Of a stretch of DNA of 47,879 nt, positions 17,830-45,676 are shown piece by piece. Position 1 is the stretch's first letter; each line of letters opens with the position of its first letter. The position numbers and the translations under genes are program-made. Origin of the DNA: a virus; IMG/VR virus record IMGVR_UViG_3300046804_001595, positions 1-47,879 of that record; one strand, written 5' to 3'. The notes under the pieces were generated by a model. That model ran no database searches. It saw only the letters and a program-made list of their open reading frames with translations, and had not been told where the DNA came from.

Positions 17830-18147
17830 ATGAATGAAGAAAATTTTTCCAATTTAACCTGGGAATTGCTTAAATATTTGGCATTTAATTATGATGAAAT
17901 GCTTGATTGTTCCCAAGAAGTTTATAAAAGTAGAATAAGTATTTGTAAATCTTGTGATCAATTTGATGACATTGAAAAAGTTTGTATGGCCTGTGGTTGT
18001 AAATTAGGATCTAAAGCAAGAGCAATTATTGAGTCTTGCCCATTATCAAAATGGGATGTTGATAAATCTGATTGGTCAGAAAGAATGAAAAAAGTAGAAG
18101 AAATTAATATTCAACTAAGTCTTGACAATAATAAGGAATCTGAGTAG
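17830..18147 (+). CDS. Zinc-ribbon-like small protein, paralogue A
   Basis: 105 residues with four or five Cys in the spacing 'ICKSCDQ ... VCMACGCKLG ... SCPLSKW', which would form one zinc-binding ribbon. The same arrangement (CEVCE, 'CKKCGCFM', 'KCPMNKW') occurs in the gene at 43864, so the window holds two paralogues. Function unknown; a protein- or nucleic-acid-binding ribbon in late infection is suggested by the upstream late-type octamer. Confidence 0.65.
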   Translation: MNEENFSNLTWELLKYLAFNYDEMLDCSQEVYKSRISICKSCDQFDDIEKVCMACGCKLGSKARAIIESCPLSKWDVDKSDWSERMKKVEEINIQLSLDNNKESE

Positions 18148-31483: not shown

Positions 31484-31491
31484 AATAAATA
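31484..31491 (+). promoter_or_regulatory. Candidate T4-type late promoter (AATAAATA)
   Basis: An exact octamer 13 nt before the start of the candidate capsid-targeted protein. This is the shortest distance among the copies, so the leader would be only a few bases. Confidence 0.45.
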
Positions 31492-31504: not shown

Positions 31505-31681
31505 ATGATTACTTTCAAACAGTTTTTAGGCGAAGCAAAAAAGAAAAAACCACTATACTCTAAAAAACACATAGAAAAGCAATTAAACAAGCAAGGTGGA
31601 ATTGGCGCAAAAGCAGTAGAAAAATATATTGAACAAAATCCAAATCGTGGTCCTCGTGAGTATAGATTAGGTGACAGATAA
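31505..31681 (+). CDS. Candidate capsid-targeted internal protein, MITFKQFLGEA start
   Basis: 58 residues. The N-terminus MITFKQFLGEAKKKK resembles the capsid-targeting sequence of T4 internal proteins (MKTYQEFIAEA), in which gp21 protease cuts after the Glu: here LGE|A fits the (I/L)-x-E|A rule. The mature part would be basic (KKKKPLYSKKHIEKQLNKQG), as expected for a DNA-packed, injected protein. A late-type octamer precedes it. The second candidate of this kind is at 44176. Inference from short motifs; no ribosome-binding site is obvious. Confidence 0.5.
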   Translation: MITFKQFLGEAKKKKPLYSKKHIEKQLNKQGGIGAKAVEKYIEQNPNRGPREYRLGDR

Positions 31682-35678: not shown

Positions 35679-36260
35679 ATGTTTGAACCAGTAGTTCCAT
35701 TTATCAAACACTATATTACAAAACACCACGAACTTTATAGTGGTCAATGTAAGGCAGAATATTGGGAGGAAATTCTTGCACGTTCTCTAAAAGAATCTGG
35801 GTTAGGTAGTGATTGGAAACCAGATTTTAATCATAAGTCTGGTGTTGATCAAACTATGGGCAATGGAATAAGAATTAGTAATAAAGGTGGATCAATTGAT
35901 AAAAATATTATTTCTTTTAGTGGATCACGTCTGACAAAGTATAAAACATTAAATGAAAAACTTGAATTTTTGAGTGATAAAAAAGAAGATTATATTCTTT
36001 GTCTTGCAACAGATAAAGATGAATGGAAGAAAGGATCTAAAAGATATTATTTCGTTGTAATTAATTCAGATACTTTAAACTATCACGAACAAGAATGGGA
36101 AGAAACATACGGACAACGGACAAATATTGGTCAACTTAATGGATGGAAATGTTCTTCCGAAGCATTTGATGCTAAAATTATCAGATCTAACTCTGATCAA
36201 CTCTGGACTGAAATGAAACTTGATTACTACGAAGAATTTTATGAAATTACTATTGGGTGA
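35679..36260 (+). CDS. Unknown partner of DNA methyltransferase, possible restriction-endonuclease-like protein
   Basis: 193 residues. It overlaps the methyltransferase start by 20 nt and lies directly behind a cassette promoter. Residues 52-71 (HKSGVDQTMGNGIRISNKGG) offer D57 and K69 as possible PD-(D/E)XK-type residues, with Ser instead of Asp/Glu two before the Lys. 'SFSGSRLTKYKTLNEKLEFL' and 'YILCLATDKDEW' follow. The 'K-(S/A)-GVD' box is shared with the partner of the second methyltransferase. Family not recognised; nuclease activity is an inference. Confidence 0.5.
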   Translation: MFEPVVPFIKHYITKHHELYSGQCKAEYWEEILARSLKESGLGSDWKPDFNHKSGVDQTMGNGIRISNKGGSIDKNIISFSGSRLTKYKTLNEKLEFLSDKKEDYILCLATDKDEWKKGSKRYYFVVINSDTLNYHEQEWEETYGQRTNIGQLNGWKCSSEAFDAKIIRSNSDQLWTEMKLDYYEEFYEITIG

Positions 36261-37005
36261 TTGTTTAGATATTTTACCAACACTTGCAGATAATTCTGTA
36301 GACATGGTGTTGGTAGATTTACCATATGGTACAACTGCCTGTAAATGGGATTCTATTATTCCCCTTGATAAATTGTGGGAGCAATATAATAGAATTTGTA
36401 AAGAGAATGGCGCAATGGTATTCACTGCCGCCCAACCTTTTACTACCATTCTTGCAGCATCAAATATTGATAATTTTCGTTATGAATGGATTTGGGAAAA
36501 ACCACAAGGAACAAATCCTATGAATTCAAAGGTTATGCCTTTGAAATCTCATGAAAATATCTTGGTGTTCTACCGTAAGAAGTGTACTTACAATCCTCAA
36601 ATGTGGTATTCCACTCCCTATAGTGGGTTTTCATCAAATGTTAGTAAAATTGGTGAAGTATATGGTAGTGCTCAATCAAAACATCGCCACAATCCAGAGG
36701 GTTCTAGATACCCTAAAACAGTTCTGAAATTTAAACAAGAAAAAGGTTTACATCCAACACAAAAACCTGTAGACCTTATAGAGTATTTGATTAAAACATA
36801 CACAAATTCTGGTGATGTTGTATTAGATAACACTATGGGTAGTGGAACAACTGGTGTTGCGGCAGTTCAATCTGGTCGTGATTTTATTGGTATTGAAATG
36901 GATGAAGAATACTATAAGATTGCAAAAGATCGCATAGAAGGTGCTGTGGCAGTTGATGGGGTGGCACAACAAACCTCAAATGCCCTGGTAGATGCCCTAT
37001 ACTGA
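36241..37005 (+). CDS. DNA N6-adenine/N4-cytosine methyltransferase (beta class), cassette 1
   Basis: 254 residues from ATG at 36241 (KLLLGDCLDILPTLADNSVD, the usual family start); an in-frame ATG at 36220 would add seven. Catalytic motif IV is DLPY (26-29), then 'HPTQKP' (171-176) and SAM-binding motif I 'DNTMGSGTTGVAA' (~196-208), followed by 'GIEMDEEYY'. Motif order IV-X-I is the beta class. Target sequence cannot be read. The tail after residue 235 carries a cassette promoter for the next genes. Confidence 0.85.
   Translation: MKLLLGDCLDILPTLADNSVDMVLVDLPYGTTACKWDSIIPLDKLWEQYNRICKENGAMVFTAAQPFTTILAASNIDNFRYEWIWEKPQGTNPMNSKVMPLKSHENILVFYRKKCTYNPQMWYSTPYSGFSSNVSKIGEVYGSAQSKHRHNPEGSRYPKTVLKFKQEKGLHPTQKPVDLIEYLIKTYTNSGDVVLDNTMGSGTTGVAAVQSGRDFIGIEMDEEYYKIAKDRIEGAVAVDGVAQQTSNALVDALY
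36959..37003 (+). promoter_or_regulatory. Box/-10 cassette 5 inside the methyltransferase end
   Basis: GGGTGGCACA at 36959 and TATACT at 36998: exactly 39 nt apart, although both lie in coding sequence. The downstream bases GACAAGGTACTCAA match the start regions of the cassettes at 40451 and 42072. No strong hairpin. Confidence 0.5.
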
Positions 37006-38139: not shown

Positions 38140-38783
38140 CCTACACAGTACAACGTCCTTTTCTCAAGAATCACAAAGTTCATGATTTTCATCAATCTCT
38201 TTCTAAAGAAAAGAGAATTATTGAAAACGGAGAACACCTTTCGGTTATTAATCAATTGAATCTTGAGTTTGAAAAACTTGGACTGAGAATTGACTTTAAT
38301 ACTTTTGAAGATAACTATGGAACTGACAGTTTATCTCAATTCAAAAACAAAGCAGGTGTTGATGCTACGTTTAACTTAATCTCCATTAAATCTGGAAACA
38401 TTGTAAAAGAAGGATTTACGATTGATTATAAGTTTCGTGATCCTAATGCAGTATGGGATGACTTTTTAGCAGAAACTGTAAGTCAAGATTTTATTCGGTT
38501 CAATTCTAAAAAACCAATTGTTCAGGGATGGGCAATTTGCAAACACAAGATCAATGATGCTATACTTTATATTCTTCCCTACCATAAAAAAGCAACTCTT
38601 GTAATGCGTGAAGAATTAAAGAAGGGATTTGAAAAGAATCGTTTCCCTCTTGATGATCGTCGTCGTAAGATTGCAAAAAATAAAGGTTGGGACACTATCA
38701 GTTATGTGATTGATTGGAATCGCCTAACTAAAGTATGTCCAAGCACAATTATATTCAACTATGAGTCATGTAAAACTTTATAA
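38136..38783 (+). CDS. PD-(D/E)XK nuclease-like partner of second DNA methyltransferase
   Basis: 215 residues, overlapping the methyltransferase start by 23 nt. Residues 72-99 (KAGVDATFN ... GFTIDYKFRD) give D76, then 20 residues, then D97-Y98-K99, a canonical D-X20-(D/E)-X-K metal site. A helical 'AETVSQDFIRF' and strand 'VQGWAICK' follow, as in the nuclease fold. The adjacent methyltransferase would protect phage DNA. So this pair could be a compact restriction-modification unit. The residues are seen; cutting activity is inferred. Confidence 0.55.
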   Translation: MTYTVQRPFLKNHKVHDFHQSLSKEKRIIENGEHLSVINQLNLEFEKLGLRIDFNTFEDNYGTDSLSQFKNKAGVDATFNLISIKSGNIVKEGFTIDYKFRDPNAVWDDFLAETVSQDFIRFNSKKPIVQGWAICKHKINDAILYILPYHKKATLVMREELKKGFEKNRFPLDDRRRKIAKNKGWDTISYVIDWNRLTKVCPSTIIFNYESCKTL

Positions 38784-39435
38784 CGAAGACTGTATGAATG
38801 TACTCCCGTCTCTTGCAGATGGGAGTATTTCCCTTACTCTCACAGATATACCTTATGATGAGGTGAATCGTAAGAGTGGTGGATTAAGAAATCTGGATAA
38901 AAGTCACGCAGATATTATCACATTTCCACTTGATGAGTTTATTGATGAAGTTGTAAGAGTAACTTCTGGGAGCATTTATATTTTCTGTGGATCAGTTCAA
39001 GTCTCACATATTCGCAACAGATTGATAGAGTACGGTTTATCTGTGAGACACTGTATATGGGAGAAAACTAATCCTTCTCCTATGAATGGTCAATATATCT
39101 GGCTTTCAAGTATAGAGAATTGTGTGTTTGCCAAAAAGTCTGGTGCAACATTTAATGAGCATTGTAAGTCTGCAGTGTGGCGTTCTCCAACTGAAAGATA
39201 CAAGGATCATCCAACACCAAAACCAGTCAAGTTAATGGAAAGATTGATTGAAGCAAGTTCTAACGTAGGTGATACTGTCTTAGATCCTTGTATGGGAAGC
39301 GGTGCAATTGGTGTTGCTGCTAAACAATGTGGTAGAAACTTTATTGGTATTGAAATGAATGCCGATTACTTTAAATTGACCGAAGAAAGAATTAACAGTC
39401 AAAGTAACAGCATTCTATCTTTCATGGACAGATAA
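38761..39435 (+). CDS. DNA N6-adenine/N4-cytosine methyltransferase (beta class), cassette 2
   Basis: 224 residues: motif IV DIPY (29-32), 'FCGSVQVSHIRN', 'HPTPKP' (150-155), SAM-binding 'DTVLDPCMGSGAIGVAAKQC' (171-190) and 'FIGIEMNADYF'. The first methyltransferase is a distant relative with DLPY and TMGSGTTG, so the two likely recognise different sites. Coupled to the PD-(D/E)XK-like gene upstream; the next element is a cassette promoter. Confidence 0.85.
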   Translation: MSHVKLYNEDCMNVLPSLADGSISLTLTDIPYDEVNRKSGGLRNLDKSHADIITFPLDEFIDEVVRVTSGSIYIFCGSVQVSHIRNRLIEYGLSVRHCIWEKTNPSPMNGQYIWLSSIENCVFAKKSGATFNEHCKSAVWRSPTERYKDHPTPKPVKLMERLIEASSNVGDTVLDPCMGSGAIGVAAKQCGRNFIGIEMNADYFKLTEERINSQSNSILSFMDR

Positions 39436-43782: not shown

Positions 43783-43867
43783 TATTGAAGACGCCATAAT
43801 GTGGGAAAACCGAATGAAAGAAAATGGTTGTATAGATATTGAAGTTGTACCATTGTTTTCCTTATGA
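43712..43867 (+). CDS. Conserved small cyanophage protein
   Basis: 51 residues from ATG at 43712 (KYQVIYTKNKKKKVSKQVAT, then 'FYNIEDAIMWENRM', ending in VVPLFSL). I recall a family with 'TATFYNIEDAxMWExxxK...EIVP'. It overlaps the membrane protein frame by 71 nt; both frames look coding. Confidence 0.55.
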   Translation: MKYQVIYTKNKKKKVSKQVATFYNIEDAIMWENRMKENGCIDIEVVPLFSL

Positions 43868-44145
43868 GTTCAAATCATACAGAATCATGCGATTCGTGTT
43901 CCAATGAAATGCCGTCTATTTCTCAACAAGGAATTAATTTCTCAAAAACAGTCTTTGATATTATTCAAGATACCATTAAGGGAAATGATCTTCTTGTAGA
44001 CAATTTTGAAAAACAAAGACGTTATAATATTTGTGAAGTCTGTGAATATTTCTTTCAACCACAAGCCAGATGTAAAAAATGTGGTTGTTTTATGGAAAAG
44101 AAGGTTGAATTCCGTGCTGCCAAATGTCCAATGAATAAGTGGTAA
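43864..44145 (+). CDS. Zinc-ribbon-like small protein, paralogue B
   Basis: 93 residues. Cys pattern CDSCSNEM near the N-terminus, then 'ICEVCEYFFQPQARCKKCGC' and 'AAKCPMNKW'. The second block has the spacing of the gene at 17830, confirming paralogy. The two lie 26 kb apart at the edges of different modules. Unknown role. Confidence 0.6.
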   Translation: MSSNHTESCDSCSNEMPSISQQGINFSKTVFDIIQDTIKGNDLLVDNFEKQRRYNICEVCEYFFQPQARCKKCGCFMEKKVEFRAAKCPMNKW

Positions 44146-44147
44146 AG

Positions 44148-44155
44148 AATAAATA
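44148..44155 (+). promoter_or_regulatory. Candidate T4-type late promoter (AATAAATA)
   Basis: An exact octamer 20 nt before the MKTFQEF gene. Confidence 0.5.
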
Positions 44156-44175
44156 AAAATAAAAGCAAAAAAACC

Positions 44176-44634
44176 ATGAAGACGTTTCAAGAGTTTCAGG
44201 AAAGTTATCGTGATCTCTCTGCCAGAGGTGGATTTGATCCAAGATTTGATCGTAAAGGAAAACCAGATCTAGAACGCGGACCAAACCGTTGGACAATCCC
44301 AGATCGTTCACCAACTCTTGGTATGGATAAAATGGCAAGAACACAATATAATGCAAGAGAAAGAATGCTCAGAAAATCTCCTTTAGGCACTACACCAGCA
44401 AGAGAACCAGTCGGTGAATCCAAAGGTGACGGTGCATCTCCTTATGAAGTCTACAAACCAAAACCACAACCAACAAATACTACACCACCACCTGCCGACT
44501 TCAGAGACAAGTATCTTCCAAAACAAACCAAACAGGCACAATTAGTTCCGCCGAAAACAAATACTCCTCTTGATCTTAGAAATCCTGGTGAAAAATTACG
44601 TGCTCTTCAAATTCTAAGAAAGCAACAAGGTTAG
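44176..44634 (+). CDS. Candidate capsid-targeted internal protein, MKTFQEFQES start
   Basis: 152 residues. MKTFQEFQESYRD is nearly the capsid-targeting peptide of T4 internal proteins (MKTYQEFIAEA); here gp21-type cleavage could follow the Glu of FQE|S. The rest is basic, Pro-rich and probably disordered (RKGKPDLERGPNRW, 'PKPQPTNTTPPPADFRDKYL'), fitting a packaged and injected protein. The late-type octamer upstream supports virion expression. Its end overlaps the convergent minus-strand gene by 4 nt. Confidence 0.6.
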   Translation: MKTFQEFQESYRDLSARGGFDPRFDRKGKPDLERGPNRWTIPDRSPTLGMDKMARTQYNARERMLRKSPLGTTPAREPVGESKGDGASPYEVYKPKPQPTNTTPPPADFRDKYLPKQTKQAQLVPPKTNTPLDLRNPGEKLRALQILRKQQG

Positions 44635-45377
44635 TTACGAACGTAAAACCACCAAGATCCTTTCCATGTATATTTTCCAGGATTCTTTAAACTCCTAAGA
44701 ATCCCTTGTTTATCTGTTGTTTCAAATGCTCTTAGTGCGGCATTTATACTCTCATACCGAACTTCAATCTGTTCGGTTTTTTTATTAACTGAAAATACTG
44801 CTCTTTTCTGATCTTTTTCTTCTATAATTTTCCATTTATGTCCATATGCAGTTCTACCTGTACGTGCTGCAAGTATAATGTTTGAATTGTTAATTGCTTT
44901 ACCAGTAACTTGTTCTGCTGCAACTCTTGCACTTTCATAGTCAGTGCATAGTCCAGTTTCTAGATTTTTACCACGTATCTTAAATCCAAAGTGTTTACCA
45001 TTTCCACGATTCTCTTCATTCCATTGAATAAGGTGTGGTGCCGCTTTGTATGAACGTGGTTTCTTTTCTTCTTTTTTTATTTCTTTAATTTCAACTGGTT
45101 GTATTACTTGTTTAATTATGTTATATTCTGGTTTATATTTTTCTATCCAATAGTTTGTTTTTGATTCAAATTCAGATTCATCACATTCATCCAGTTCTTT
45201 AATCATAAAATTGTGTATACCATACTCTCTGAATGCTTTATGTAATGGTTCAGAGGACATTCTTTTAGATTTCTCTATGTGTTGTACCCATTCCTTGTTC
45301 ATTGCAAGTGTGGTATTTCCTATGTACTTGTGTTCATTCTGTTTGTTGAGAATAAGGTAGATAATTCCTCTTTTCAT
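44631..45377 (-). CDS. GIY-YIG family endonuclease
   Basis: 248 residues, the only gene on the minus strand. GIIYLILNKQNEHKYIGNTT is the GIY-YIG core, followed by 'EWVQHIEKSKRMSSEPLHKA', the conserved Arg/His helix, and 'WIEKYKPEYNI' as in Seg-type nucleases. The C-terminal half has NUMOD/helix-type repeats ('DYESARVAAEQVTGKAINNS', 'YESINAALRAFETTDKQG') that bind DNA. No intron is visible around it, so it is likely a free-standing mobile nuclease. Opposite direction and convergent end suggest an insertion. Confidence 0.85.
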   Translation of the reverse strand: MKRGIIYLILNKQNEHKYIGNTTLAMNKEWVQHIEKSKRMSSEPLHKAFREYGIHNFMIKELDECDESEFESKTNYWIEKYKPEYNIIKQVIQPVEIKEIKKEEKKPRSYKAAPHLIQWNEENRGNGKHFGFKIRGKNLETGLCTDYESARVAAEQVTGKAINNSNIILAARTGRTAYGHKWKIIEEKDQKRAVFSVNKKTEQIEVRYESINAALRAFETTDKQGILRSLKNPGKYTWKGSWWFYVRN

Positions 45378-45513
45378 GGTGTATTGTATAGTGTTGTAAT
45401 TATATGTATTTCATGGTATTATGAATATATTTTATGGTGTATGATATTTTAAGGTTTTTGTTACTGGCGATACTTTTAGAGTATTATTGGTAAAAATTCT
45501 TATTTCTTTTGTA

Positions 45514-45676
45514 TAAATGCCTTTAATATCTTATAAATGCCTCTGAGTCTTTATAAATGCCTCTAAATGCCTCTAAATGCCTCTGAGTCTTTATAAATGC
45601 CTCTAAATGCCTCTGAGTCTTGTGAGTCTTTATAAATGCCTCTAAATGCCTCTAAATGCCTCTGAGTCTTGTGAGT
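45514..45676. repeat. 10-bp-phased tandem array of TAAATGCCTC
   Basis: TAAATGC begins at 45514, 45534, 45554, 45564, 45574, 45594, 45604, 45633, 45643 and 45653. Units TAAATGCCTC alternate with TGAGTCTTTA or a 19-nt spacer TGAGTCTTGTGAGTCTTTA. The ten-base phase places every copy on one helix face. Not CRISPR: units are far too short and there are no unique spacers. Confidence 0.85.

Follow-up and report, generated by a model that had tools for sequence, protein, structure and literature searches.

Internal head proteins and their targeting sequences

The internal proteins of phage T4 are trimmed by the prohead protease gp21, packed with the DNA and injected to block host defences. In the T4 record IPII and IPIII start with MKTYQEFIAEA and IPI starts with MKTFKEFTSTT. 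All three are small and basic, begin with M-K-T-[FY]-x-x-F followed by a Glu near residue 10, carry a head-protease-like site and have mature parts that are mutually unrelated. PMC9026906 describes T4 gp21 as cutting after L/I-x-E, and targeting by the capsid-targeting sequence (CTS, residues 4 and 7) as separable from its processing (residues 8 and 10). Ejection proteins of phiKZ and SPN3US are, according to the same source, head proteins that are cut after a short x-x-E and ejected with the DNA (PMC9026906); the likeness to the protein described below that is considered here lies in x-x-E cutting and ejection.

Virion studies of cyanophages have found enzymes in the particles, where cargo was not distinguishable from contamination, as stated in PMC10665884, and a recognisable loading tag would help to separate the two by sequence. 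A full-text literature search, with most subscription papers outside its scope, brought up no paper describing a cyanophage CTS. Enzymes listed for the virions of S-CREM2, S-SZBM1 and S-SCSM1 (cytidylyltransferase/NMNAT-like proteins, a SAM lyase/hydrolase and an APH-like kinase) were detected in purified particles by others and have a CTS-like N-terminus; they are folded and mostly have canonical [LI]-x-E sites.

The 152-residue protein and its surroundings

The window, i.e. the whole stretch of 47,879 nucleotides analysed here, contains a gene for a 152-aa protein with the N-terminus MKTFQEFQE (Table 1). For this protein capsid targeting is preferred, with considerable confidence, over other readings. 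The gene is real and under purifying selection, with a dN/dS of 0.14-0.21 against three relatives. Five relatives with 75-86% identity were found in IMG/VR by a first relative search, and in all six aligned sequences M1, K2, T3, F4, F7, Q8 and E9 are invariant and the N-terminal 60 residues are largely conserved while the tails diverge. An earlier sequence-only reading had described an ORF behind a late-type octamer, a start close to that of the T4 internal proteins and a basic, disordered remainder. ORF and octamer are present as described, MKTFQEFQE compares with MKTYQEFIAEA of IPII and IPIII in the T4 record, and the protein has a pI of 10.1, a net charge of +12, a GRAVY of -1.29, 20 Pro and no Cys. 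Its AlphaFold2 model, built with six sequences, has a mean pLDDT of 61.5 and a pTM of 0.21, with short helices predicted at residues 4-9, 52-67, 109-113 and 137-151.

Table 1 Features of the tagged gene and of a second CTS-type gene in the window
Feature	Position	Strand	Basis
T4-like late promoter octamer AATAAATA, 28 nt before the ATG of the 152-aa gene	44148..44155	+	motif placement
ORF, 152 aa, basic, largely disordered	44176..44634	+	ATG 44176, stop 44634; relatives, dN/dS, model
CTS-like N-terminus MKTFQEFQE with putative cleavage site after E9	44176..44202	+	invariant residues; motif common to unrelated proteins
Conserved module, residues 10-60, YRD.SARGGFDPR...PNRW.IPDRSPTLGMDK	44203..44355	+	six-sequence alignment
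C-terminal DLR motif TPLDLRNPGEKLRALQILRKQQG, predicted helix 137-151	44563..44631	+	regex counts, AlphaFold2 model
Octamer AATAAATA, 21 nt before the second CTS-type gene	31484..31491	+	motif placement
Second CTS-type gene, 58 aa, MITFKQFLGEAKKKK, canonical LGE/A site	31505..31681	+	20 relatives

Like the T4 internal proteins, the window protein combines this start with aromatic residues at the targeting positions (Y4 and F7 in IPIII, F4 and F7 in the six sequences of the window family). It differs from them in having Glu at position 9 instead of 10, Phe at P3 instead of Leu or Ile, a cyanobacterial host and no homology beyond the tag, and in that we infer its packaging. BLASTP against T4 IPIII aligned residues 1-23 (E=0.006) and elsewhere gave chance-level pieces. 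The L/I-x-E of the T4 CTS is absent from the 152-aa protein, which has FQE at residues 4-6 and 7-9 and VGE at 79-81; the corresponding site in the second gene is LGE/A. The window protein also differs from the cyanophage virion enzymes, being disordered and having no known domain. PHROGs and Pfam held no family for it, and tblastn against 50,697 phage records gave a chance match only. A profile search with the family alignment yielded no new distant family but three loci, two of them on known contigs and the other, L407, on the same contig as L056.

The natural reading of the gene content is that the DNA derives from a T4-like cyanophage. Matches to the window helicase occur in 449 phage records, mostly of Synechococcus phages and cyanophages (best S-SCSM1, 57%), and the tail-fibre PHROG together with the order tail fibres, helicase, methyltransferase and small ORFs resembles S-PM2. 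The window and six relative contigs, all of them fragments, yielded neither gp21 nor gp23. All 20 relatives of the second CTS-type gene keep M[IR]TF[KQR]QFL[EA]EA, and 19 have a TAAATA-type octamer within the 45 nt before the gene. With S-PM2 as positive control, gp21 homologs (68-69% to S-PM2) were found on three of five tested contigs with relatives of this gene, and the contig of relative L003 carries both the second gene and the 152-aa gene.

Several other features of the window were observed. A small gene directly upstream of the tagged gene, at 43864-44145 (+), and another at 17830-18147 (+) encode proteins with CxxC...CxxCGC zinc-ribbon-like ends. On the other side a GIY-YIG/HNH-type homing endonuclease gene at 44631-45377 (-) converges on the tagged gene with a 4-nt overlap with its stop codon; in T4 the GIY-YIG gene segB likewise lies near ipI. 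Beyond the start of the endonuclease gene, at 45512-45670, there is a tandem array of about four copies of a 40-bp unit (TATAAATGCCTCTAAATGCC...). Two DNA methyltransferase genes, at 36220-37005 (+) and 38761-39435 (+), belong to one PHROG family.

A tag shared by unrelated phage proteins

The start MKTFQEFQE represents a variant form of the T4 CTS and not a chance resemblance. Ten complete phage records, those of T4 and nine cyanophages, were scanned with the pattern M-K-T-[FY]-x-[KQE]-F. In T4 it matches exactly four genes, ipI, ipII, ipIII and gp61.1, and in six of the nine cyanophages it matches 13 genes (three each in S-PRM1, S-CAM9 and S-SRM01, two in SynMITS9220M01 and one each in P-TIM68 and DSL-LC02). 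The DSL-LC02 start, MKTYREFVAEA, agrees with T4 IPIII in nine of 11 residues, and S-SRM01 has a pair of neighbouring genes that start with MKTFQEFQES and MKTFQQFQES. With K and T swapped the pattern has no match in the same ten records. S-PM2, Bellamy and S-SM2 have no exact match, and near variants occur in Bellamy (MKSFKQFQES) and S-SM2 (MKTLKQFLKET); no convincing tagged gene turned up in S-PM2 when it was searched, so that this phage is unusable as a model. With residue frequencies per position taken from 437 annotated N-termini of cyanophage proteins, the chance of MKT[FY]..F is 6.6e-5 per ORF, or 9.5e-6 with Glu at 9 or 10, and the window holds 97 plus-strand first-ATG ORFs of at least 60 aa. 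The product of T4 gp61.1 (NC_000866, 18966-19130, -) is a hypothetical protein with the CTS-like start MKTFKEFIKED.

The search for proteins sharing only this N-terminus that had been suggested for the gene returned many. Three tag scans of IMG/VR gave at least 120 stretches each, class totals thus being lower bounds. All complete tagged proteins of at least 25 aa collected for the first clustering, T4 and isolates included, formed a set of at least 125 distinct proteins, which fall into at least 44 clusters by BLASTP from residue 12 onward. Past residue 11, at least 52 clusters were found among at least 110 proteins matching MKTY[KQ][EQ]F[ILVM], and at least 47 among at least 110 matching MKTFQ[QE]F. 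The presence of the tag on unrelated proteins is therefore established, with at least 44-52 unrelated clusters per set. Among the matches listed, net charge is positive in 95/95, 88/108 and 96/101 tagged proteins of the three sets; the other ORFs on the same contigs have a slightly negative median net charge.

At positions left free by the patterns the class recovers the processing signature of T4 as read from sequence, namely Glu at 10, a hydrophobic residue at 8 and Ala, Ser or Cys at 11. Among the matches listed, 89 of the 110 MKTY proteins have Glu at 10 and 65 have Ala or Ser at 11. Of the 110 listed MKTFQ proteins, 87 have Glu at position 9 or 10, compared with a Glu frequency of 6.5% over residues 12-40. 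Within the latter, residue 8 is hydrophobic in 45 of the 47 listed proteins with Glu at 10 only but in 17 of the 37 with Glu at 9 only (p=3.5e-7). This split implies that there is a register shared with T4, [ILVM]8-x-E10, and another, F7-x-E9, which includes the window protein. Ala, Ser or Cys is preferred at 11 in the E10 register, whereas the E9 register has no such preference and mostly Q, D or K after E9.

The octamer before the 152-aa gene had been described as late-type. It is present and its placement is non-random, but taken alone it says little, as WATAAATA occurs 12 times in the window against 11.5 expected. With the count at chance level, it was dropped as late-promoter evidence and only the placement was retained. 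Of the ten copies on the plus strand, six precede an ORF start by 19-32 nt, a zone that makes up 2.8% of positions (p=1e-7); for permuted A/T words the figure is 21/141. In the class at large, among the matches listed, a [ACT]TAAATA site occurs within 60 nt upstream in 72/100 of the MKTFQ set against 170/1264 other ORFs, and in 50/108 of the MKTY set against 175/1262. The FQ[ED] set, which includes the window protein, shows no enrichment among the matches listed (19/108 against 217/968 other ORFs), because it is dominated by a 51-aa family that lies inside an operon; octamers there precede 1/49 members of this family and 19/46 of the remainder.

The resemblance to the T4 CTS could in principle be due to chance or to a bias of start regions, and the product be an ordinary cytoplasmic protein. 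The octamer count and the position of the gene after a run of small ORFs resembling early genes would be in keeping with this, but the empty result for the permuted pattern, the spread of the tag over so many unrelated clusters and the detection of tagged proteins in other cyanophage virions make it the least probable account. Capsid targeting, as proposed in the sequence-only reading, is strongly supported for the tagged class by the unrelated proteins sharing the tag, and for the window protein itself it is likely.

The C-terminus of the window protein carries a further shared element. PLDLRNPGEK belongs to a motif, D[LM]R....K, that occurs in nine of 453 tagged but only five of 40525 untagged ORFs, at loci chosen for the tag. 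Four of the nine tagged ORFs belong to the 152-aa family, and the motif is also found in small tagged proteins with no other relationship to it (L033, L105, L225 and L275).

Virion detection, probable trimming and a proposed pathway

In the virions of other cyanophages published detection coincides with the motif. For S-CREM2, 52 virion proteins were identified by mass spectrometry (Table 3 of PMC10665884). All 219 annotated genes of this phage were translated and scanned for [MVL][KQ]x[FYL]xxFx(x)E; the narrow MK[TS] pattern has no match in S-CREM2. The strict form of the motif is found in five proteins, all five in that table (p=6e-4), a statistic that is post hoc, since the motif proteins were recognised only from virion-detected N-termini. 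They are the SAM hydrolase (MKDFDSFLEE), a kinase (VKRFDAFLTE), the cytidylyltransferase (MKNFSSFLTEA), ORF13 (MKDLHSFLTE) and ORF136 (MQTFSMFFSE). The looser motif has six of nine proteins in the same table (p=0.006). Another S-CREM2 virion protein, ORF12 (L398 7704-10313, -), has a CTS-like RFASFMAEA at residues 18-26, behind the annotated start; its annotation as Cas9 has no Pfam support and was set aside.

With the motif fixed beforehand, S-SZBM1 served as an independent test and gave no significant association by itself. The virion list (Table 1 of PMC9146016) has one of three looser-motif proteins and 29 of the 215 remaining proteins (p=0.36), and the single strict-motif protein is absent from it. 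The one detected is the cytidylyltransferase (MRFRQFIIEA), by the count given in PMC9146016 the only enzyme in the list, and the two undetected ones have 105 and 165 aa. Pooled over both phages, 7/12 looser-motif proteins are in the published tables, against 75/425 other proteins (p=0.002). NMNAT was reported in S-SCSM1 virions in PMC9602691, and the S-SCSM1 gene found by similarity, assumed to be the same ORF, starts with MKSFLQFLKEA. All three virion-reported cytidylyltransferases (S-CREM2, S-SZBM1 and S-SCSM1) start with the motif.

The tag is also kept by orthologs of these enzymes. A tag-like start is found in 80/80 kept loci of 119 confirmed relatives of the cytidylyltransferase, and the isolates S-ShM2 (MKKFSTFISEA), S-SSM4 (MKKFSDFLTEA), S-CREM1 (MKRYTNFLSEA) and P-TIM40 (MRFLDFIKEA) provide examples; the annotated cytidyltransferase of S-PM2 has a start without the tag. 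For the N-terminal module of the SAM hydrolase the start is tag-like in 65/80 kept loci of 335 confirmed relatives, the remaining 15 comprising 11 near variants and four without a tag. Pfam assigns this module to S-AdoMet_lyase, which is also present in a P-TIM68 protein starting with MKTYKEFIQDI.

Many tagged genes of cyanophages sit among structural genes generally, as would be expected if the N-terminus addressed proteins to the tail or baseplate. This is improbable, for in T4 three proteins inside the head carry the pattern, tagged genes often adjoin terminase genes, and enzymes such as a SAM lyase or a cytidylyltransferase would be more easily placed in a head. Capsid targeting is well supported for the class, which by analogy would use the scaffold as T4 does.

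Trimming by gp21, the further step that had been proposed for the window protein, is plausible. Alongside the invariant E9 it draws on the 51-aa tagged family, in which the tag is elsewhere replaced by sequence ending in Glu before a conserved [GS]W. In S-PRM1, S-CAM9, DSL-LC02 and P-TIM68 the 51-aa core is preceded by other sequence with Glu directly before GW, in S-SM2 it comes after an internal KTFEEFRES, and the S-SRM01 protein starts with MGWSEKYKK. These module boundaries are compatible with cleavage after E9. FQE, however, is not the canonical L/I-x-E, and the tag might direct the protein to the prohead core and stay uncut, making it an uncleaved scaffold or core part instead of injected cargo. 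The missing Ala/Ser/Cys preference in the E9 register and the separability of targeting and processing in T4 (PMC9026906) would agree with such a core part; the invariance of E9 in the 152-aa family and the 51-aa module boundaries, which come after Glu at the equivalent place, argue against it. An uncut core protein is a possibility to be taken seriously but rather unlikely, and cutting of the window protein after E9 seems the likelier outcome.

The gene product is proposed to be an internal head protein that a T4-like cyanophage carries as cargo and that would be expressed late. M-K-T-F-x-x-F-Q-E, with aromatic residues at targeting positions 4 and 7, would bind the prohead scaffold core and so draw the protein into the head, where gp21 would then probably cut after E9 (FQE/S). 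The very basic, disordered chain of 143 residues left on the packaged DNA may leave the head with it at infection. For the window protein, packing and injection are extrapolated from the T4 proteins and from the detection, by published mass spectrometry, of other tagged cyanophage proteins in virions; injection would follow from the T4 model. The likeliest putative role in the host is early, DNA-bound help against the host, possibly by means of the DLR motif, and the SAM lyase among the tagged proteins is compatible with a role in anti-defence.

In a wider reading, which is favoured with some reserve, the CTS would be a general address label of T4-like cyanophages and the window protein a DNA-riding carrier made up of CTS, disordered basic linker and DLR motif. 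The T4 CTS would thereby gain a large group of further bearers among phages of marine and fresh waters. Reading protein starts for [FY]-x-x-F-x-x-E would then list the injected proteome of each phage, including CTS-tagged SAM lyases, NMNAT-like enzymes, kinases, DUF6267 proteins and RlpA-like enzymes. The tag would point to proteins that enter cyanobacteria with the DNA, ahead of phage gene expression, among them likely anti-restriction (SAM lyase) and NAD-related enzymes.

Two observations were made on other loci. A DUF6267 protein (L587 3001-4245, +) starts with MITFKQFLAEA, which suggests that this family may be packaged too; it contains VKWDGAP, presumably a KxDG nucleotidyltransferase-like motif. 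Cyanophage proteins encoded near terminase genes (L131-L138) are made up of small repeated modules that contain Cys and have x-x-E sites between them, as though a head protease cut there.
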